DNA from: Clostridia bacterium
GTDB taxonomy: Bacteria; Bacillota; Clostridia; Peptostreptococcales; Anaerovoracaceae
Length of the DNA: 32,329 nt
Direction: 5' to 3'
Assembly: GCA_024684465.1 (NCBI GenBank)
Contig: JAIKWW010000165.1
Span: 1 to 32,329, forward strand
In this document: positions 822 through 29,931 of the stretch, piece by piece
How the letters are laid out: each line of letters opens with the position of its first letter
Position numbering within the stretch: position 1 is the first letter of the stretch
The notes under the pieces: generated by a model
Seen by the model: the letters and a program-made list of their open reading frames with translations, nothing else
Told to the model about the DNA's origin: nothing
The model's database searches: none
Position numbers and translations under genes: made by a program

Positions 822-2219
822 TTATTCCGGATTATTCACTATATCTGAATAACTGACCAGAGAGACATTGGCCATCTCTCCGGCTCTTTTGACGCATCTT
901 TCTGTGAAACCGGTCTTCGAAAACAGATAATAATGGACTTTTGAGTACCGGAATAACGTGCCCCGGGCAATAAGCTGCTCCAACACATCAAGATCCACAT
1001 CTTCGTTTCTCCATTTGCATTCAGCTATAATGGCCGTTTCTCCATCCTGCTCTCCCATGATATCTATTTCAGCCTGGCACTTGTTTACAGGATCATTTCC
1101 CCACCAGCGACCAAGGGATACAAATTCCACCGGAGATTTTCCGGAAAGAAGCAGCCTCCACAGGTACTGTGTACAGATTTCCTCAAAGACTTTTCCCATG
1201 TGGTCGCTGAGCTGTTCCCTGATTCTTTTATATACCAGATCCACGGCGCCCATTGCTATTGCTGAACTGTTGTCAAATACAAAGCGGTACCAAAATGCAA
1301 ACATGTTGTCTGCAACAGAGTAGACAGCTTTTTTTGAATTCTTTTCGCCATAAGGCGTTTCTTTTTTTATTATCCCGAGACTCAGCAGATTCTTTATGTA
1401 CCTGGAGCAAACATTAGTTGCTTCTCCAACCTTATTTGATATTTCAGACAGACGGGAGCATCCCTTTGAAATCGCTGTTACGATTGCAGTGTAGATTGCC
1501 GGTTCCCGAACTTCCTGTTTTAACAGATTGATCGGCTCTTCGTACAGAAAAGACATCGGATTTAAAAAAATGTTCTTTATGTTGTCTTCGATACTCAGCT
1601 CATCGTTTATCTGCAGTAAATATTGAGGCGTCCCGCCTACGATCCCATATGCCAGAGCTTTATCCTCGTCGGATAGCCCCGGAAAATACTTGCAGCTCTC
1701 TAAAAAATCGAACGGAAGGATCTTCATCTGTGCAGTTCTTCTTCCGTAAAGTGGGGCTTTATACGCCAGAACCTCATCTTCCATATATGACATGGATGAT
1801 CCACACAATATCAGCATCAGCTTTGATGAATCTTTGTATCGGTCAATGAGCAATTGCAAAGTGGAAGCCAGACTCTTCGAAGCCCTTGCCACGTATGGAT
1901 ATTCATCTATCGCAAGCACTATGCGGTCATCTTCTGATAGTTTAAATACATATTCGAGTGCCGTCTGATACGACGAAAACAACGTATCTGCCTGGATGCC
2001 ATTGCTGTATTCGAAAATGCTCCTGCTTAAATTTTCGAGATTCAGCCTTTCATTGCTCTCGACCCCGGTAAAGTATATTGTCTTTTTACCTTTCACAAAG
2101 TTATTAATGAGCGCGGTTTTTCCTACACGACGGCGGCCATATATAACAACAAACTCAAATCTATCTGAATCGTATAGCCGGTTCAGTTCCGCCAATTCTT
2201 TCTCTCTGCCAACAAACAT
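822..2219 (-). CDS. Archaeal-type AAA ATPase with C-terminal nuclease-like domain (ATPase/DUF234 family)
   Basis: 465 residues. The chosen start is the ATG at 2219 because AAAAAAGGAG lies just upstream; a longer reading to 2258 lacks a ribosome site. Walker A is GRRRVGKT (28-35) and Walker B is VLAIDEYPYV (101-110). A winged-helix-like middle (about 250-310) is followed by a C-terminal stretch with E384, D386 and E400-x-K402, the spacing of a PD-(D/E)xK nuclease-like fold. This is the layout of the ATP_bind_2/DUF234 family, common in archaea and anaerobic bacteria, with no established general role; defence or toxin-like roles are speculation. It is monocistronic, ends at hairpin R1a and starts at a promoter overlapped by a 14-bp palindrome, which suggests autoregulation through its own winged helix. 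Confidence 0.88.
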   Translation of the reverse strand: MFVGREKELAELNRLYDSDRFEFVVIYGRRRVGKTALINNFVKGKKTIYFTGVESNERLNLENLSRSIFEYSNGIQADTLFSSYQTALEYVFKLSEDDRIVLAIDEYPYVARASKSLASTLQLLIDRYKDSSKLMLILCGSSMSYMEDEVLAYKAPLYGRRTAQMKILPFDFLESCKYFPGLSDEDKALAYGIVGGTPQYLLQINDELSIEDNIKNIFLNPMSFLYEEPINLLKQEVREPAIYTAIVTAISKGCSRLSEISNKVGEATNVCSRYIKNLLSLGIIKKETPYGEKNSKKAVYSVADNMFAFWYRFVFDNSSAIAMGAVDLVYKRIREQLSDHMGKVFEEICTQYLWRLLLSGKSPVEFVSLGRWWGNDPVNKCQAEIDIMGEQDGETAIIAECKWRNEDVDLDVLEQLIARGTLFRYSKVHYYLFSKTGFTERCVKRAGEMANVSLVSYSDIVNNPE

Positions 2220-2259
2220 ATCATTGTCTCCTTTTTTAGAGAATATCACCGCAAACAAA

Positions 2260-6687: not shown

Positions 6688-7086
6688 ATGAATGTAAACA
6701 AACGAATCGAAATGTTGATGGAAGAACGCAAATGGACAATATACCGACTTGCAAAAGAGACTGGTCTCTCGCAGTCCACTCTTGCGCATATATTTCGCAA
6801 CGATTCTGTGCCAACCATTGCTACTCTTGAGATCATCTGCAAATCTTTTGGCATATCCCTCAGTCAATTTTTTGCCGAAGACTATCCGACACGTACTGAA
6901 GAGAAGAATGTTTCATATAACGCAGTCACCGGATCTGTCTCATTTCCTGAGGCTGCCACGGATTCCCGGTACCTCTCGAAAGAGCAAGTCAAGCTCATTT
7001 CCGGATGGTCACTTTTGTCAAATCAGCAAAAGGAACTCGTTGGAGTAATGATCGAAACGATGCTCAGCCAGAACGGATATCGCTGA
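6688..7086 (+). CDS. Xre-family transcriptional regulator A (132 aa)
   Basis: An N-terminal helix-turn-helix fills about residues 4-65 (RLAKETGLSQSTLAHIFRND, then SVPTIATLEIICKSFGISLS). The C-terminal half has a linker and a helical tail (YLSKEQVKLISGWSLLSNQQ) that ends SQNGYR. AGAGAGG precedes the ATG. It is divergent from the zinc-ribbon operon across control region copy A and most likely binds there, regulating both itself and that operon. A paralogue with about three quarters identical residues lies at 12357. The gene is followed by the R4a hairpin and faces the secreted stalk-domain gene convergently. Confidence 0.9.
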   Translation: MNVNKRIEMLMEERKWTIYRLAKETGLSQSTLAHIFRNDSVPTIATLEIICKSFGISLSQFFAEDYPTRTEEKNVSYNAVTGSVSFPEAATDSRYLSKEQVKLISGWSLLSNQQKELVGVMIETMLSQNGYR

Positions 7087-8419: not shown

Positions 8420-9163
8420 TCATAAGTACTTTAAACGAAGGATTTTCAACGCATCTTCTTTCGAGATCTGCAATCCAAGCTGTTCTGTTTCTACAGGTTC
8501 AGATTCAACTTCAGTCAAAAAAGTCTCTATGCTTTCGCGGACAAATCCGTCCGTCTCTATGATTTTCTCCGGATCAACTATCTGAAGAAGCCTGAACACA
8601 TCGTTCTTGTGCTTCTTATAGTCGCGGTCATTAACGTGCTCCCCGTTTATCTTCCTTCTCTTAAGATCAACCCAGGCATACATCTTGAAAGGTATAATAT
8701 GATCAGCGTCCAAAACGCTTATATCACCGACGACTATTCGACCCTTTATCATAAATTCATAAAAATCGTCATTTAAAAGAATTGCGGATAAACTTGAGAT
8801 ATCGTCATCTATATGGATCGGTATAATTCCTTCTTCAACCTCAAGACTGTATCCCGGCTTTCTCGAAAACAGCTCTATCATCACTGGATATCCGGCAATC
8901 GGCTCTGTGAATCTGTAAAAATGCATTTTATCACTGTTTCTCCAGCCGCACTTGTATTGTCCTTCCCTTATAAATTCCCAAAAGGCTCTTGCAAACGCTT
9001 CCTTTTTATCCTCCAGAATCAGAATCATATCAATATCTTTAGTCCGCCTGAAATCAATGTCCGCTTCAGCCATAATAATGTCGCAGGCCGTTCCGCCTAT
9101 TACTGTGTAACAGTCTTCAAACCCTCTGAACTTTTCTTTAAAAGAATCAATTCCGTCTACCAA
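8420..9163 (-). CDS. AbiEii-like nucleotidyltransferase (247 aa), toxin candidate
   Basis: TTG start at 9163 overlaps the stop of the upstream gene by 7 nt, so translation is coupled. Residues about 18-48 (YTVIGGTACDIIMAEADID then FRRTKDIDMIL) show the GG-[ST]-x and DxD core of the nucleotidyltransferase fold used by AbiEii/AbiGii-type toxins and related enzymes. The rest is helical with a charged centre (KRRKINGEHVNDRDYKKHKN). Together with the winged-helix gene upstream it has the layout of a type IV (AbiE-like) toxin-antitoxin pair, which in known members inhibits growth on phage infection. The family match is by motif only; a metabolic nucleotidyltransferase is the alternative. It ends just before R1c. 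Confidence 0.75.
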   Translation of the reverse strand: MVDGIDSFKEKFRGFEDCYTVIGGTACDIIMAEADIDFRRTKDIDMILILEDKKEAFARAFWEFIREGQYKCGWRNSDKMHFYRFTEPIAGYPVMIELFSRKPGYSLEVEEGIIPIHIDDDISSLSAILLNDDFYEFMIKGRIVVGDISVLDADHIIPFKMYAWVDLKRRKINGEHVNDRDYKKHKNDVFRLLQIVDPEKIIETDGFVRESIETFLTEVESEPVETEQLGLQISKEDALKILRLKYL

Positions 9164-10116
9164 TTATACCCCTCCAAAAAACTCTGTAATTCACCTTCAA
9201 CACGCTCATCTGTATTGTCCGACAGACTCATGACAAGTGATACCGGATCCACTTCTCCATCCTTTGCAAACAGCCCCGGATCATACTTCCAAAGCTCTAT
9301 ACTGCTCGTTTTTTTATCATCCTGCCATCTTGAATCTATCTCTTCGATCATGTTCGCATTTTCACTGCCCTTAAATACAGCATATACATCCTCGTTAGGG
9401 GCTGCGAGCATGCTATGTCTGCTCAGCATGGTCTCTCCGGCAACGAAGAATCCTTTATCTGTTGCGACCTCTGCATGCACGGTCTTCTGTACAGGACTTA
9501 TAAGATAGGCTTTAGCTGCCTCAAACATTTCGAGACCTTTATAGAGAGGAATCATCCTTATCTCTTTCCCCGAATGTTCTTCTCTGATAAGATTCATCTG
9601 CTTAAGCTGTTCAGAAGCTCTTGTAATAGAAGTCCTCGTCAATCCCAGATCCTCTGCCGCCTGCTTTTTTATAAAAAAACCGTTTTCACTGTTATACAAC
9701 AGATAAAGAAACAGACACTGAGTAGCAGGCATCATTTTGTCGGTAGCTACAGACAGCTTCTTCTTATAATTATTGCTCAACATCACTCCAAGGAAAGGCA
9801 AGTATAACTGATCAGGCAAAGACACAAAAGCGACCCCTTTGGATATCAGCGAATCTCTTTGTATTCTTGTAAGACCATCAAAACAGAATGCTACGTCAAG
9901 ACCGGTCTTCTCCATATACAGAGTAAGCTGTTTCTTGAGCGCCACCGCACCGAATTTCTCTTTATCAGATGTTGTGACCAGCATAAAAGAAGCGTTCCCC
10001 ATAACAGCATTATAGAAAGTCCTTCCCGAAGTCATGTACAAAGGCATACCTTTAAGTTTGATTCGTTCTAAATGACAGCTTATCCCAAAAGCCTTCTTTA
10101 AGGTATCTTCCAGCAT
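9157..10116 (-). CDS. Winged-helix partner of the AbiEii-like gene (319 aa), antitoxin/autorepressor candidate
   Basis: The ATG at 10116 has GAGGTGAT at good spacing. Residues about 1-125 form an alpha/beta domain (DVAFCFDGLTRIQRDSLISK). Residues 130-195 are a MarR-like winged helix (AAEDLGLTRTSITRASEQLK). The C-terminal part (AGETMLSRHSMLAAPNEDVY, and VDPVSLVMSLSD) resembles the AbiEi antitoxin C-domain. Gene order, antitoxin-like gene first with a 7-nt overlap onto the nucleotidyltransferase, is typical for such pairs. The promoter region carries four copies of an ATGTTAT-type half-site, fitting autorepression. A regulator for a non-toxic nucleotidyltransferase remains possible. Confidence 0.75.
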   Translation of the reverse strand: MLEDTLKKAFGISCHLERIKLKGMPLYMTSGRTFYNAVMGNASFMLVTTSDKEKFGAVALKKQLTLYMEKTGLDVAFCFDGLTRIQRDSLISKGVAFVSLPDQLYLPFLGVMLSNNYKKKLSVATDKMMPATQCLFLYLLYNSENGFFIKKQAAEDLGLTRTSITRASEQLKQMNLIREEHSGKEIRMIPLYKGLEMFEAAKAYLISPVQKTVHAEVATDKGFFVAGETMLSRHSMLAAPNEDVYAVFKGSENANMIEEIDSRWQDDKKTSSIELWKYDPGLFAKDGEVDPVSLVMSLSDNTDERVEGELQSFLEGYNW

Positions 10117-12356: not shown

Positions 12357-12755
12357 ATGAATGTAACAGAACGAATCGAAATGCTTATGAAGGAACGAGG
12401 ATGGTCGATATACCGACTCGCAAAAGAAACTGGTTTGTCGCAGTCTACTCTTGCGCACATATTCCGGAAGGATTCCGTACCAACCGTTGCTACACTTGAG
12501 GTCATCTGCAGATCTTTCGGTCTGTCACTCAGTCAGTTCTTTGCTGAAGATGGTCCCTTGCGAACTGCAGATAAGAGTACTCTGCAGGATTCAGTCACCA
12601 GTTCTGTCTCATCCTCGGAAAAGGCCATCGATTCGCGATATCTCTCAAAAGAGCAGGCAAGGCTCATTTCCGGATGGTCGCTTTTGTCAAGTGATCAGAG
12701 GGAGCTCGTTCAGGTGATGATCGACACTATGCTCAGCCAGAACGGACATCGCTGA
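12357..12755 (+). CDS. Xre-family transcriptional regulator B (132 aa)
   Basis: Same length and layout as regulator A: helix-turn-helix at about 4-65 (RLAKETGLSQSTLAHIFRKD, SVPTVATLEVICRSFGLSLS), then YLSKEQARLISGWSLLSSDQ and the end SQNGHR. AAAGAGG precedes the ATG. About three quarters of residues match regulator A, with differences concentrated in the linker (66-92), so operator recognition is probably shared and effector response may differ. Its divergent partner is a pseudogene, so it may now act only on itself or in trans on the other two control regions. Terminator R4e follows. Confidence 0.9.
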   Translation: MNVTERIEMLMKERGWSIYRLAKETGLSQSTLAHIFRKDSVPTVATLEVICRSFGLSLSQFFAEDGPLRTADKSTLQDSVTSSVSSSEKAIDSRYLSKEQARLISGWSLLSSDQRELVQVMIDTMLSQNGHR

Positions 12756-13475: not shown

Positions 13476-14684
13476 TTAGTCTCTGCCGCAGCAAGCCTTG
13501 TACTTCTTGCCGCTTCCGCACGGGCACTTGTCGTTTCTTCCTACCTTGACGTGCTTCATCGGGTTGACGTTTGCAGGAAGCTTGATATTTCTCGTCTGCA
13601 TCTTGTCGATGATGAGCATCTCAGGCTTGTAACCCTTGCAGAACCAGGTGTGGAGGCCATAGTACCAGTTTGTGTACAGGGAAATGAGACTGTTGAAGTC
13701 GTCGCTGTCGTCAAACTTGATGCCGTGATCCACGGAGATCTCCAGGAGCACTGCAGGAGCGCTGTCTCTCATGGCTGCCATGAAGAATGCCATCATCACT
13801 TCGTCAGCCTTTTCCTCGCTGCCGGTCTTGCGGATGAGATAATTTCTGAAGAACTTGTATGTAATGCCGTCGTCAAGGATAACGCCCTCGTCGTACTCGT
13901 CGATCTCTTCCTTGTTGACAACGTAATATGTGTCGCCCTGCTGGAGGGAGCCGAGGATCACGTTGTATGCTTCCGGATCAGGGAGCAGATCGGAAACCAC
14001 GTACTTGTTGTCGATGTAGATGTGGTCTTCTGCGCCGACCTTTTCCAGTGCGTCCATAATTTCATTAGGAGAAAGCGCCTTTCCGTAGTTCATATCCAGA
14101 ACCTGCTTGAGCTGGGTTACCGGATATACGCCGTAAATGTTGGAAAGTGAGCGCGCATAGCGAATGATCTCAGTCTCCTGGACGGTTCTGTCTGTGTCAG
14201 CTTCCTTTTTCTGAACCTCGGAGCGATGTGTGTTGCGTTCCTCCGGAGTAATCTCAAGTGCCTCGGAAATAGCTTCCTTTGAAGAGGTATGGGAATGAGC
14301 TGCGCCGCTGGCGATGTCCCTGATGTCAGCCGGAACGATGACCTTTGCTGCATCTCCGTCCTCTGCGAAGAAAACCAGACCTCTGCGATAGAGAGTCATG
14401 ATCTTTTCATCGGAATCGTCCTGAATTCTCGCTCCACCTACGGCAATCTCTCCGAAGGAATCGGCATAGGCTCTGCCTTCTCCTGCCAGGAATGCCTTTG
14501 CGCCTTCCATTACTGCGGCTTCTGCCTTCTCTGCCAGATCTGCCTTCTTTGCTGATGCTGCGGCTTTTACTCCGTACTCGTCACAGATTTCCTTGCTGCG
14601 TCCCTTGAGGCTCTTGTCCAGACAAGCTGCAAGGCCGTCCGTCTCAACTATCTTTACGCATAATTTCTTAAGCGAATCATTCAT
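13476..14684 (-). CDS. SEC-C motif protein (402 aa)
   Basis: AGGAGG lies 11 nt before the ATG. The last 25 residues (VGRNDKCPCGSGKKYKACCG) are a complete SEC-C zinc-binding motif, as at the end of SecA and many unrelated proteins, where it mediates zinc-dependent binding to protein partners. The N-terminal about 80 residues are helical and Ala/Lys-rich (EYGVKAAASAKKADLAEKAE); the middle has an acidic domain (PDPEAYNVILGSLQQGDTYY). No catalytic motif was seen. It lies 78 bp downstream of the FtsZ-like gene in the same direction, so may share its transcript. A chaperone or targeting role is only suggested by the motif. Composition is G+C-rich, core-like. Confidence 0.85.
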   Translation of the reverse strand: MNDSLKKLCVKIVETDGLAACLDKSLKGRSKEICDEYGVKAAASAKKADLAEKAEAAVMEGAKAFLAGEGRAYADSFGEIAVGGARIQDDSDEKIMTLYRRGLVFFAEDGDAAKVIVPADIRDIASGAAHSHTSSKEAISEALEITPEERNTHRSEVQKKEADTDRTVQETEIIRYARSLSNIYGVYPVTQLKQVLDMNYGKALSPNEIMDALEKVGAEDHIYIDNKYVVSDLLPDPEAYNVILGSLQQGDTYYVVNKEEIDEYDEGVILDDGITYKFFRNYLIRKTGSEEKADEVMMAFFMAAMRDSAPAVLLEISVDHGIKFDDSDDFNSLISLYTNWYYGLHTWFCKGYKPEMLIIDKMQTRNIKLPANVNPMKHVKVGRNDKCPCGSGKKYKACCGRD

Positions 14685-14762: not shown

Positions 14763-17720
14763 CTACAAATCATTCGGATCCTGTTTGGAAATAATTTCAA
14801 CTTCCTTCAGCGCTTCCTCGGCCTTTGCCTTTGCGATAGCCGCTTTTTCTTCAGCCTTCTGGAGTTTCTTTCTCAATTTTTCACGCTGACGCTCTTCACG
14901 CCTCTGTGCCCAGGTACTTTTGGTGCGTTCAGCCGGTTCGGCGGCCTCTTCAACGATCGTTTCGGGAACAGGATCGTTTACCTCATCCTTCCGGGCAGCT
15001 CTGAGATCGTCTGCATTCATCGGTTTCTGACGGACGTCTTTAGTATCCAGAACATCCAGTTTGCCGTTGGCGACGCGCCCTCCGTAAACCTGTTGTGAGG
15101 ACTTCGCTTCCGGGGTTCCCTTTGCTGCTCCCAGCATGGCCATGGCTACTGCCGCTCTCCTGCTGCGATTGTCCGTGGTTCCGCTGCCGGTTTCCTGTTT
15201 GCCGGTATCCGGAGCTGCGCCGCTGGATGCCGGTCTGTCGGCTTCCTGTGGTCTGATGGTCGGGGCCTTCGGTCTGGATGGCGGATCCAGTGGAGGCGCA
15301 TCCACCGCCCTTACTTTTGACATGTCCGGCGCTGCAACTTTTCCTAACCCCGGTGGTTTATTCGTTTCAAGTCCGACTTTCGGTGCCTTCACGCCACCGA
15401 CCTGCGGGGCTTTCACTCCGCCGACTTGCGGGGCTTTCACGCCACCAACCTGTGGGGCTTTCACTCCGCCAACCTGCGGGGCCTTGGTTCCGCCGGCCTG
15501 CGCCGCCCCGGTGCTCCCGGTCTGCGGCGCCTTTACGCCGCTGGACTTCTGCCCCGGCGCCTTTACACCGCTGGTCTGCTGCCCGGATGCCTGCTGTCCC
15601 GGCTGGGCTTTCGCACCCGAAGCCTTGCCCGGCTCTATAGGCTTCTCCTTCAGCTGTACTGCAGCAGCCGCCCGGGTCTGATCCTGCGCCGCCCCGGCGT
15701 TCCCGGTCTGCGGCGCCCTTACGCCGCTGGTCTGCTGCCCCGGCGCCTTTACACCGCCAGTCTGCTGCCCGGACACCTGCTGTCCCGTCTGGGCTTTCGT
15801 ACCCGGGTCTTTACCGGGCTGTATCGGTGTTCCCTGTCCCGCAGCCTGGGTTGCGGCATTGACCTGTACCTGCTGTATAGGTGCTGCCTTGCCACTCGCA
15901 CCTGACGCCGTCCGGCCTGCATCACCGGAAGCCGCTTTAACTTCCGCCCCGGCCGGCACCGTCCCGGCGCCAGTCGTTCCCTGCGCTGTCCCGGCCGCCA
16001 TGACGGGAGCACTTCCTGCAGCAGCTCCGGTTCCGGGAGCATCTGCTGTGACACCTGCTTCCTGAGCTCTTTCCGCTTTAATCTGCGCCCAGGACTTTGG
16101 CTGATCCTGGTTGGCAGACGCCGCCAGAGCGGCACGCTGGAAAGGTGTGCTCCCTGTATTTCTCGTATCCGGGAGCTGGGCGAACTCCTCAGCGAACTCC
16201 ACAGCCTCTTCCAGATCCTCCAGTGCCAGTTCCTCATCCGATAAATATATGCTGGCCAGAGCTTCATCCATGGTCCTCATGGTAGTCGGAACGTCCGATC
16301 CGTATTTTACCACGGCCTTGCTCTGGCGCACCTGAAACTTGTTTATTTCCTTCGCCAGTCTTGCCTGCATCTTGCGCATCTTGGCAGGATCGACAACCTC
16401 TCCACGTTCAGCGCCGATAAGCACCTTTATGCCGTCAACAAGTCTGTCCAGTGACGAAGAATTCGTCTGCTGCTGATATGCTCCCATCGGGATACTCTGG
16501 CTGGAAACCACGTTGTAAGCGCTCGGCTTTGATGCAGTATTTGCAGAGCCGGTGGCAAACATTCCCACCAGAGGCAGTTTGAAGTTGAGTTTCGATCTGT
16601 CCCGGGAGCCTCTGAGGGGAGCACGAGCACCGGCGTCAGTCGATCCGGGGCCGGCGTCGGTTGACCCACCCGGCGTCAGTCCGCCAAGTCCGGCGAGGCC
16701 GACGTCAGTCGATCCACCCGGCGTCAGTCCGCCAAGTCCGGCGAGGCCTGCGGCAGTCGATTCCGACCCGGCGCCAGTCAACCCAAGTCCATCAAGTCCC
16801 GGCTCAGTTGACCCTGTGCCGGTCGACCCGCCCGGCGCGAGTCCATCAAGTCCCCCCACGTCAGTCGTTCCGGGTACTCCCAGTCCGTCTGCACCGGTCG
16901 ACCCGCTGCCGGAGGCTCCTCCCATTCCTGCTGCTTCCCTGAGAATGGCCAGACCCACATCCTCTGAATATTCCAGAGCATCCTTGAAGTTTTCATCATC
17001 ATCCGCAACGGAACGCCACATCTTTTCCAGCAGCTTTTCCGGTTCCACTGCCAGCGAAAACTCCCTTAACTTGAAATCATACGTGTACTGCATGTATCTG
17101 TCAAGTTTTGGAATCTGCCTGGACAGTTCCACGGTGAGAATGGCTGCCTCTTCCTCCAGAGCCTCCAGTGCTTCGCTGAGAGAAGGCGCGGAGCCTGACA
17201 GCACAGGACTCTCCGGCTCATCCGTATTTTTCCTGCGGATAACTCTCAGCAGTTCATCCGGATAGTAGAGAGAGACCGACTTGTAGTCTGCGGTCATGCT
17301 CTTCATCATCTCGGACAGAGCCTTTGCTCTGCGCTGTCCCTCAAAAAGAAAAGGCGCTATGAAGAGAACGTGGAACCTTACGCCCAATTCTCTGCAGACA
17401 TCCTGGACCACAGGCAGCGCTGCCGCTTCCTGAGCTTCGCATCCACAGACCATGAGCAGGTCCCCCGCTCCCTCAAAATTCTTCATAAACACTTCCCGCA
17501 GCTTTTCCATCCGGCTTCTTTCCTGCTCCAGCGGAGTGGAAGTCCCCGGATCCGGACTTATGCGGGAATAGTTTATCATCGGTATTTTATTTTTAAACTT
17601 GCTGAGAGTGTATTGATCTCTGGCTGCCAACAGAACTCTCTTAAGCAGCCGCTTCTTACACTTGAGCCTCAGCACATGAGCTATGTCGATATATCCCGTA
17701 CTGACGAGAAAGATCTTCAA
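14763..17720 (-). CDS. FtsZ-like protein lacking GTP-binding loops, with long repetitive linker (985 aa)
   Basis: The TTG start at 17720 is preferred (AGGTGA at 5 nt); GTG at 17729 is the alternative. Residues 1-205 follow the FtsZ fold in order: a first strand MKIFLVSTGY, LLAARDQYTLSK (FtsZ 'AVNTDAQAL' region), an EGAGDLLMVCG strand, then PVVQDVCRELGVRFHVLF with APFLFEGQRR, the near-universal FtsZ 'PF.FEG..R' motif, and a YYPDELLRVI strand. The GGGTGTG loop is replaced by CEAQEAAAL (94-102) and the glycine-rich first loop is absent, so GTP hydrolysis is unlikely. Residues about 265-880 are Ala/Gly/Pro/Thr-rich with tandem repeats (LAGLGGLTPGGSTD; five VGGVKAPQ-like units). A charged coiled C-terminus follows (ERQREKLRKKLQKAEEKAA). 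The gene starts 18 nt after the dpaL stop, so the two are co-transcribed. Role unknown. Confidence 0.75.
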   Translation of the reverse strand: MKIFLVSTGYIDIAHVLRLKCKKRLLKRVLLAARDQYTLSKFKNKIPMINYSRISPDPGTSTPLEQERSRMEKLREVFMKNFEGAGDLLMVCGCEAQEAAALPVVQDVCRELGVRFHVLFIAPFLFEGQRRAKALSEMMKSMTADYKSVSLYYPDELLRVIRRKNTDEPESPVLSGSAPSLSEALEALEEEAAILTVELSRQIPKLDRYMQYTYDFKLREFSLAVEPEKLLEKMWRSVADDDENFKDALEYSEDVGLAILREAAGMGGASGSGSTGADGLGVPGTTDVGGLDGLAPGGSTGTGSTEPGLDGLGLTGAGSESTAAGLAGLGGLTPGGSTDVGLAGLGGLTPGGSTDAGPGSTDAGARAPLRGSRDRSKLNFKLPLVGMFATGSANTASKPSAYNVVSSQSIPMGAYQQQTNSSSLDRLVDGIKVLIGAERGEVVDPAKMRKMQARLAKEINKFQVRQSKAVVKYGSDVPTTMRTMDEALASIYLSDEELALEDLEEAVEFAEEFAQLPDTRNTGSTPFQRAALAASANQDQPKSWAQIKAERAQEAGVTADAPGTGAAAGSAPVMAAGTAQGTTGAGTVPAGAEVKAASGDAGRTASGASGKAAPIQQVQVNAATQAAGQGTPIQPGKDPGTKAQTGQQVSGQQTGGVKAPGQQTSGVRAPQTGNAGAAQDQTRAAAAVQLKEKPIEPGKASGAKAQPGQQASGQQTSGVKAPGQKSSGVKAPQTGSTGAAQAGGTKAPQVGGVKAPQVGGVKAPQVGGVKAPQVGGVKAPKVGLETNKPPGLGKVAAPDMSKVRAVDAPPLDPPSRPKAPTIRPQEADRPASSGAAPDTGKQETGSGTTDNRSRRAAVAMAMLGAAKGTPEAKSSQQVYGGRVANGKLDVLDTKDVRQKPMNADDLRAARKDEVNDPVPETIVEEAAEPAERTKSTWAQRREERQREKLRKKLQKAEEKAAIAKAKAEEALKEVEIISKQDPNDL
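15378..15510 (-). repeat. Tandem 24-bp coding repeats (VGGVKAPQ units)
   Basis: About five 24-bp units inside the FtsZ-like gene, differing mainly at third codon positions. Third-position variation says that the peptide, not the DNA, is kept. Confidence 0.8.
16655..16770 (-). repeat. Tandem 48-bp coding repeats (LAGLGGLTPGGSTD units)
   Basis: At least two nearly identical 48-bp units (CCACCCGGCGTCAGTCCGCC followed by AAGTCCGGCGAGGCC) in the same linker. The near-identity at the DNA level suggests recent expansion. Confidence 0.75.
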
Positions 17721-17738
17721 AGAGATCACCTGCCTTGC

Positions 17739-18935
17739 TTAATCCTTTAACCCCGTAATCACTTTCATATAATTTACTTTATCCGTAGCCCCCTCAGTGG
17801 AGAAGAGCATGATCTTCGAGTCCTTATTGAGCCCGATGGAATCCCTCATCTCCGCCAGCTTCGGATCGGTCATCAGCTTCACCAGAAGTCCCGTGGTGGA
17901 CGCACCGCTCTCTCCGGAGATCACCTTTGGATCGTCTCCGTACGGATTTGCCAGGACTCTCATCCCCTCAACCGCGCACTCATCCGGTACTGTGACGAAA
18001 TGATCCGCATAGTCTGCCAGGATGTCCCATGCCAGGAGACTCGGTTCTCCGCAGCAGAGTCCCGCCATCATAGTCTGCATAGTGCCCTCTGTTCTGTGAA
18101 GCTTTCCGTCGCCGACGCTTGCCGTCCGGAACAGACAATCCGCTTCGTTCGGTTCAAGGATCACACAGATCGGCCTGAGATCATCACCGTAGAGATCCGC
18201 GAAAAATCCGGCTATGCTGGCTGCGAAAGAACCGACTCCCGCCTGAAGGAAAACGTGCGTGATGTCTTCCCCGTTCATCTGCTGAATAGCTTCGTAGATC
18301 ATGGAAGTGTAGCCCTGCATGATCCACCTCGGAATGTCCTCATAGCCGTACCATGCCGTATCCTGAACCAGGATCCAGCCATTTTCCTCAGCCTGATTTC
18401 TGCAATAGCGCACGCAGTCGTCATAATCCATATCAAGAATCCGGGCATCCGCCCCCAGCTGCTTTATATTCTTAAGCCTTTCCTCAGCCGTGCCCCGCGG
18501 CATGTAAACCACACACTTCTGATTCATCTTATTTGCCATCCAGGCAACACCCCTGCCGTGATTTCCATCAGTGGCAGTGGCGAATGTCACATCTCCCAGA
18601 TCGTGTTTCAGGTCGTCACTTACGAGCAGGTCGTAGGTCAAGTAGTCCATGCCCAGACCGATCCTCTGAGAAATCACCTTTGCGATGGCATAGCTGCTCC
18701 CAAGTATTTTGAATGCGTTGAGCCCGAAACATGTACTTTCATCCTTCAGATAGATCTTGTTCACATGAAGGACCTTCGCCAGCATATCCAGCTGACGCAG
18801 CGGCGTCGGCTTGTACTCCGGAAATCCCTTGTGGAAACGGTTCGCATGCTCCGCCACGTTCAAGCCGAACTCATGCACAGGAAAAAGTGTCCCGTCTATC
18901 TGTCTCTTCCTCTTGATATGTTTATATTCACCCAT
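17739..18935 (-). CDS. dpaL: Diaminopropionate ammonia-lyase (398 aa)
   Basis: The ATG at 18935 follows AGGAGG at 7 nt. This PLP enzyme of fold type II turns 2,3-diaminopropionate into pyruvate and two ammonia, also using D-serine poorly. The PLP lysine is K76 in FGLNAFKILGSS, matching the lysine near 77 in the enterobacterial enzyme. ATATDGNHGRGVAWMA is the phosphate/cofactor region, and SGESGASTTGLL and STEGATD line the site. Length matches the family (about 400). It is upstream of the FtsZ-like gene, an unexpected operon partner. In amino-acid fermenters it would supply pyruvate and ammonia. A related threonine-dehydratase-like enzyme is unlikely given overall ygeX-type similarity. Confidence 0.93.
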   Translation of the reverse strand: MGEYKHIKRKRQIDGTLFPVHEFGLNVAEHANRFHKGFPEYKPTPLRQLDMLAKVLHVNKIYLKDESTCFGLNAFKILGSSYAIAKVISQRIGLGMDYLTYDLLVSDDLKHDLGDVTFATATDGNHGRGVAWMANKMNQKCVVYMPRGTAEERLKNIKQLGADARILDMDYDDCVRYCRNQAEENGWILVQDTAWYGYEDIPRWIMQGYTSMIYEAIQQMNGEDITHVFLQAGVGSFAASIAGFFADLYGDDLRPICVILEPNEADCLFRTASVGDGKLHRTEGTMQTMMAGLCCGEPSLLAWDILADYADHFVTVPDECAVEGMRVLANPYGDDPKVISGESGASTTGLLVKLMTDPKLAEMRDSIGLNKDSKIMLFSTEGATDKVNYMKVITGLKD

Positions 18936-19008
18936 GTCAGTTCCTCCTGGAGCTGTAAATACTTCATACACTTATTATCTTATCACTATTTTCTTTTCAA
19001 TAATATAT

Positions 19009-29715: not shown

Positions 29716-29756
29716 AAATCAAAAAGCGCACAGGAAAACTGCTTTCCTGCGCGCTC
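29716..29756 (-). terminator. Expression-platform terminator of the glycine riboswitch
   Basis: Hairpin AGCGCGCAGGAAA … TTTCCTGTGCGCT (minus strand, one mismatch or wobble), followed by TTTTTGATTTTTG, between the aptamers and the gcvT ribosome site. Confidence 0.85.
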
Positions 29757-29895
29757 TGTCATCAACCTGAAAGATTTGCCTCGTCGGTGCCCCATGACAG
29801 GGGTCTCTCCAGAGTATCGTCCGAAACCGGTCCTTCTGCCTGAGAGTTTGTTGCTGTTACCCCTTCGGCGCCGCAGTGCGGTCTCTCCCGTTTTC
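29757..29895 (-). ncRNA. Tandem glycine riboswitch
   Basis: Two aptamers in a row on the minus strand. The first has CGGGAGAGACC, GGCGCCGAAGGGG and CTCTCAGGCAGAAGGACCGG. The second has CTGGAGAGACCC, GGCACCGACGAGGCAAA and TTTCAGGTTGATGACAGAG. These are the conserved glycine-aptamer elements. Followed by an attenuator terminator, it should switch the gcv operon on when glycine is plentiful. Confidence 0.95.
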
Positions 29896-29931
29896 ATCAT
29901 CCGAACAATATAAATTAACTTGCTGCATCCA

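Follow-up and report, generated by a model that had tools for sequence, protein, structure and literature searches.

The product of a 985-codon gene in a Clostridia bacterium of the family Anaerovoracaceae (assembly GCA_024684465.1) is a genuine, highly diverged relative of bacterial FtsZ and represents a lineage-restricted form of the FtsZ superfamily. The residues it has lost strongly imply a pseudo-GTPase; the protein very probably neither binds nor hydrolyzes GTP and forms no normal FtsZ filament on its own. The reading rated highest, with a probability of about 0.4, is that of a GTP-independent accessory factor that would contact the cell's own FtsZ and block or tether its filaments while a long arm binds another partner. 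Table 1 presents the features of the gene and its surroundings within the window, the 32,329-nucleotide stretch of DNA that was analysed, which is an entire contig (JAIKWW010000165.1) of a 2.06 Mb assembly in 174 contigs (83.9% complete, 1.7% contaminated). The gene sits at the coordinates given in the original prediction, as its open reading frame and translation confirm.

Table 1. Coordinates of the FtsZ-like gene, its parts and its neighbours in the window.
Feature	Position	Strand	Description	Basis
FtsZ-like gene	14763..17720	minus	985 aa plus stop; TTG start at 17720	ORF and translation
Shine-Dalgarno-like AAGGCAGGTG	17727..17736	minus	6 nt ahead of the TTG of the FtsZ-like gene	sequence
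Diaminopropionate ammonia-lyase	17739..18971	minus	upstream gene	TIGR03528 above cut-off
SEC-C motif protein	13476..14684	minus	downstream gene; 402 aa	PF02810
FtsZ N-terminal (nucleotide-binding) domain fold	17226..17720	minus	residues 1-165	alignments, model, fold searches
Former T1 glycine loop	17679..17708	minus	residues 5-14; LVSTGYID; conserved glycines and N25 lost	alignments
Former T4 tubulin signature GMGGGTGTG	17418..17444	minus	residues 93-101; now GCEAQEAAA	alignments
T5 motif PFxFEGxxR	17328..17354	minus	residues 123-131; complete, PFLFEGQRR	alignments
Helical region in place of H7, T7 and C-domain	16935..17225	minus	residues 166-262	no FtsZ profile match; low-confidence predicted helices
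First low-complexity Gly/Ser/Thr linker	16596..16934	minus	residues 263-375; with repeats (LAGLGGLTPGGSTD)	composition
Non-repetitive segment of normal complexity	16131..16595	minus	residues 376-530; ~155 aa	composition
Second low-complexity Ala/Gly/Pro/Gln/Lys linker	15141..16130	minus	residues 531 to about 860; with repeats	composition, tandem repeats
Five tandem copies of G-G-V/T-K-A-P-Q/K-V	15375..15494	minus	residues 743-782	pS 0.62, pN 0.07
C-terminal region	14766..15140	minus	residues 861-985; highly charged helix-like stretch at about 936-980	sequence; coiled coil by eye

The relationship to FtsZ is established by several sequence comparisons. Over residues 67-165 the protein receives 24.2 bits from a profile of 63 FtsZ proteins, which were drawn exclusively from the genome, family and order of the window; the best of 2000 shuffled sequences receives 4.4 bits. 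A phmmer search of all PDB sequences returned 47 matches, every one an FtsZ (best E 1.1e-5, residues 69-159), and hhalign pairs the protein with FtsZ at 92% probability over residues 71-164. In related genomes, the FtsZ genes themselves match the protein with E-values down to 9e-9 per genome. Among family libraries, only the NCBIfam ftsZ model TIGR00065 responds, in a collinear but sub-threshold manner (16 bits against a cut-off of 295.2, with residues 75-167 corresponding to model positions 92-185), and no match above chance was obtained from Pfam, PHROGs or PADLOC, which agrees with the earlier view that the protein does not belong to a described family. The N-terminal domain had originally been assigned to residues 1-205. 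Of that span, residues 61-165 are supported statistically by sequence and residues 1-60 are collinear with FtsZ in the alignment and the model, while residues 166-205, corresponding to H7, receive no support from sequence.

Structure prediction points the same way. An AlphaFold2 model made without an alignment is poor overall (pLDDT 45), but the order of its helices and strands at residues 63-202 follows that of FtsZ, and its best 50 PDB matches in Foldseek, which also uses amino acids, are all FtsZ (best E 4.9e-4). A second model was informed by an alignment containing 33 FtsZ sequences from public genomes, and this input accounts for part of its high scores. Its N-domain has a pLDDT of about 70-93; FtsZ is matched at E 8e-9 in the fold search, and VIA gives Z up to 17.7 with an rmsd of 3.1 over 167 residues aligned within residues 1-194. 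The predicted N-domain is thus tubulin/FtsZ-like and not an unrelated fold. Both structure predictions and the fold searches agree with the profiles and the alignment, and the idea of an FtsZ fold that has lost its GTP loops has held up. In the FtsZ-informed model the N-domain also resembles those of CetZ, TubZ and archaeal FtsZ (VIA Z 15-18); these, however, are full two-domain GTPases, and the similarity of the protein at the level of sequence is to FtsZ only.

What has been lost from the N-domain is as distinctive as what has been kept. Only 16 of the 71 N-domain columns that are conserved in at least 85% of a diverse FtsZ set are identical in the alignment, and almost none of the conserved positions of T1, T3, T4 and T6 remain. 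The T1 motif GGGGxN has become STGYID, TKGLGAG of T3 reads SPDPGTS, and N166 of T6 is replaced by proline, with F183 and D187 lost as well. The replacement of GGGTGTG, originally reported as CEAQEAAAL, appears as CEAQEA-A in the alignments. The T7 catalytic or synergy loop NxDFAD is absent from the sequence; its aligned letters are T-V-E and the rest is displaced by a long insertion. The exception to this erosion is T5, whose retention had been noticed from the start: the alignments preserve all six of its conserved positions (P135, F136, F138, E139, G140 and R143 in B. subtilis numbering).

In FtsZ, E139 and R143 touch the ribose, T1, T3 and T4 hold the phosphates, and N166, F183 and D187 are the base-binding residues. 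The two ribose-contacting residues of T5 could therefore be taken to mean that the protein is still a nucleotide-binding, polymerizing member of the tubulin superfamily with an altered pocket. That reading is highly improbable, since the phosphate loops, the base-binding residues and T7 are gone and a C-domain is undetectable; moreover, GTP is unlikely to bind where two glutamates now occupy what was a phosphate loop.

Beyond the N-domain, the resemblance to FtsZ ends. No FtsZ profile match was found in residues 166-262, 261-560 or 781-985, which leaves the FtsZ C-terminal domain undetectable, and for residues 181-261 the FtsZ-informed model predicts only helices, at low confidence, with no beta-rich C-domain. 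The remainder had been described as a 600-residue repetitive linker. Its low complexity and repeats are evident, and DNA tandem repeats are detected at 16649-16779 within the first linker; however, the repetitive sequence forms two stretches (about residues 263-375 and 531-860) that are split by the non-repetitive segment. Positioned between two linkers, this segment is a possible domain, and searches of family libraries and genome collections for its relatives gave only chance-level matches. Taken together, the protein shares with bacterial FtsZ (TIGR00065, PF00091) the fold of the N-domain, the order of its elements, the T5 motif and significant similarity at residues 61-165. It differs from FtsZ in having no T1, T3, T4, T6 or T7 motifs and no detectable C-domain, in its identity of 16-23%, and in its arm of about 720 residues. 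FtsZ proper was therefore rejected as an assignment because GGGTGTG, T1, T7 and the C-domain are missing and the TIGR00065 cut-off is not reached.

A protein so eroded could be the product of a decaying duplicate or of a young orphan gene of little function, with a low-complexity part grown by slippage. The repeats, the very long branch and the occurrence of the gene in a single genome would all suit such an origin, as would one pair of duplicated 30-amino-acid units in which nonsynonymous differences exceed synonymous ones. The gene nevertheless shows signs of an intact, working coding gene in its codon usage and in the substitution pattern of its repeats. All 985 codons are open, and the in-frame codon preference is positive in all six segments, as in the neighbouring genes. 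The tandem eight-residue units differ mainly synonymously (Table 1), although choosing the units by their peptide pattern biases pN down somewhat. Since the N-domain fold is preserved too, decay is considered unlikely. An artefact of assembly or binning, through chimerism of the contig or a contaminating gene, might be suspected from the fragmentation, completeness and contamination of the assembly, yet it is scarcely credible for a gene that lies in the middle of a 32 kb contig and has the codon usage and GC3 of its neighbours.

Only 18 nucleotides separate the stop codon of the upstream lyase gene from the start of the FtsZ-like gene, and co-transcription of the two is therefore likely; the SEC-C gene follows 78 nucleotides downstream. 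By their Pfam and NCBIfam matches, neither of these two neighbours is a division gene. When 197 other family genomes were sampled, only 4 proved to have a full-length orthologue of the SEC-C protein, in differing neighbourhoods; the lyase occurs in 22 of 99 family genomes, its own included. No long repetitive or FtsZ-like open reading frame was found beside the orthologues of either gene in the family genomes. In genomes L107, L109 and L110, the SEC-C orthologue adjoins a relative of the DUF1980_C protein encoded at 16-690 of the window.

Searches for orthologues of the FtsZ-like protein found none in 61 relatives or in 350 genomes of the family, 394 of the order and 391 of the class (overlapping samples), where nothing closer than FtsZ was encountered; the genus is represented by the window's genome alone among the genomes searched. 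Across these genomes and, within the limits of the searches, collections of phages, plasmids, viral contigs and genome contigs, all matches were FtsZ-type genes at FtsZ-like E-values except for a single chance hit to the repeats. The branch leading to the protein measures about 10 changes per site and is saturated, and the tree is therefore uninformative as to whether the gene arose from the host's own FtsZ.

The operon-like placement away from division genes, the loss of the filament interface loops and the length of the branch would all fit a retooled scaffold, in which an FtsZ-derived fold serves outside cell division as a binding or folding module of an unrelated complex and makes no contact with FtsZ. 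Such a scaffold is a serious though tentative candidate. Against it, the retention of a full T5 amid general loss suggests some FtsZ-specific constraint, although T5 could be kept for folding alone.

An accessory factor acting on FtsZ would require a target, and the same genome encodes one normal FtsZ, which scores 184 bits to Pfam Tubulin and has its motifs GGGGG, GGGTGTG and NLDFADV intact. The position of this FtsZ in the tree and the gene content both suggest a Clostridia-like Bacillota host. None of 81 family genomes, nearly all of them more than 90% complete, contains a MinC_C (PF03775) match above cut-off, and the window's own genome is likewise without one. A recognizable MinC has, by this profile, evidently been lost family-wide, which leaves room for another FtsZ regulator. 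Since MinC_C is absent from all 81 genomes, its loss does not track the FtsZ-like gene, and a gene present in one genome of a family that lacks MinC throughout is no general MinC substitute.

In the canonical filament, the nucleotide face of the N-domain of one subunit meets the T7 face of the C-domain of the next. An N-domain-only protein could therefore bind one end of a filament without continuing it. As an accessory factor, the protein may use its FtsZ-like N-terminal fold to contact the cell's own FtsZ independently of GTP, and this contact may block or tether FtsZ filaments, as plant ARC3 would, while the long arm reaches or binds another partner. Kinases offer familiar examples of pseudoenzymes that control the active enzymes from which they derive. 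The probability is held at the value given above because the contact loops are eroded, most of the canonical longitudinal-interface loops being lost. Also against this reading, no division genes adjoin, and a single sequence allows no conserved surface to be mapped. The originally suggested role in capping, tethering or measuring FtsZ filaments is conjectural: besides the lost loops and the lack of division genes alongside, no orthologues were detected.

A functional parallel may be found in chloroplasts. ARC3 is reported to have an FtsZ-like domain, to inhibit FtsZ assembly in chloroplasts and to act as an inhibitor of chloroplast FtsZ when the latter is expressed in E. coli, and it is seen as functionally homologous to MinC (PMC4593956, PMC5471200). 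Like the protein described here, ARC3 carries its FtsZ-like domain within a longer protein and shares a compartment with true FtsZ, and it reportedly acts where bacteria use MinC (PMC5471200, PMC13335998). It differs in being plant-specific and in having a C-terminal MORN motif, for which a Pfam scan of the FtsZ-like protein gave no match; the likeness is one of description. That the protein is a bacterial counterpart of ARC3, namely an N-domain-only pseudo-GTPase that uses a long repetitive arm to control host FtsZ independently of GTP in a lineage that has lost MinC, is a doubtful proposition.

Among prokaryotic proteins, FtsZl1 (Tubulin_2) and FtsZl2 also combine an FtsZ-like N-domain with long unrelated C-terminal parts and co-exist with a normal FtsZ, and FtsZl1 similarly has no recognizable T6-H7 or FtsZ C-domain (PMC2875224). 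Both were identified through a GGGTG(S/T)G loop that binds GTP, and the genomic neighbours of FtsZl1 encode vWA, kinase and GTPase proteins (Makarova and Koonin 2010, PMC2875224). Membership in either group was rejected as this loop is lost; for FtsZl1, a Pfam scan accepting matches up to E 10 also failed to find Tubulin_2, and there was no vWA, kinase or GTPase neighbour. FtsZ paralogues lacking key motifs have been noted, especially in archaea, and motif loss as such is known (Makarova and Koonin, PMC2875224). In the literature and families searched, no description was found of an N-domain-only, GTP-less bacterial relative of FtsZ with a long repeat-rich arm. Should the protein bind FtsZ, it could serve as a natural, one-sided probe of FtsZ filaments, and the ARC3 strategy would have been invented independently. 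Should it not, the FtsZ fold would prove reusable outside GTP-driven filaments.

The window holds several other features. An ATPase_2/DUF234 protein (822-2258, minus strand) corresponds to the PADLOC candidate defence model PDC-S27 (E 4e-63). Two XRE-type HTH regulators on the plus strand (6688-7086 and 12357-12755), 75% identical over 132 amino acids, flank a cluster with lipoprotein-like genes among its members. An overlapping minus-strand pair at 8420-10116, one MarR-like HTH and one nucleotidyltransferase-like, resembles an AbiE-type toxin-antitoxin system by eye; PADLOC gave no match for it, and Pfam none above cut-off. On the minus strand at 29754-29900, a tandem glycine riboswitch consisting of two RF00504 aptamers precedes a glycine cleavage operon, which occupies the 28605-22852 region together with lipoate ligase and dihydrolipoamide dehydrogenase.
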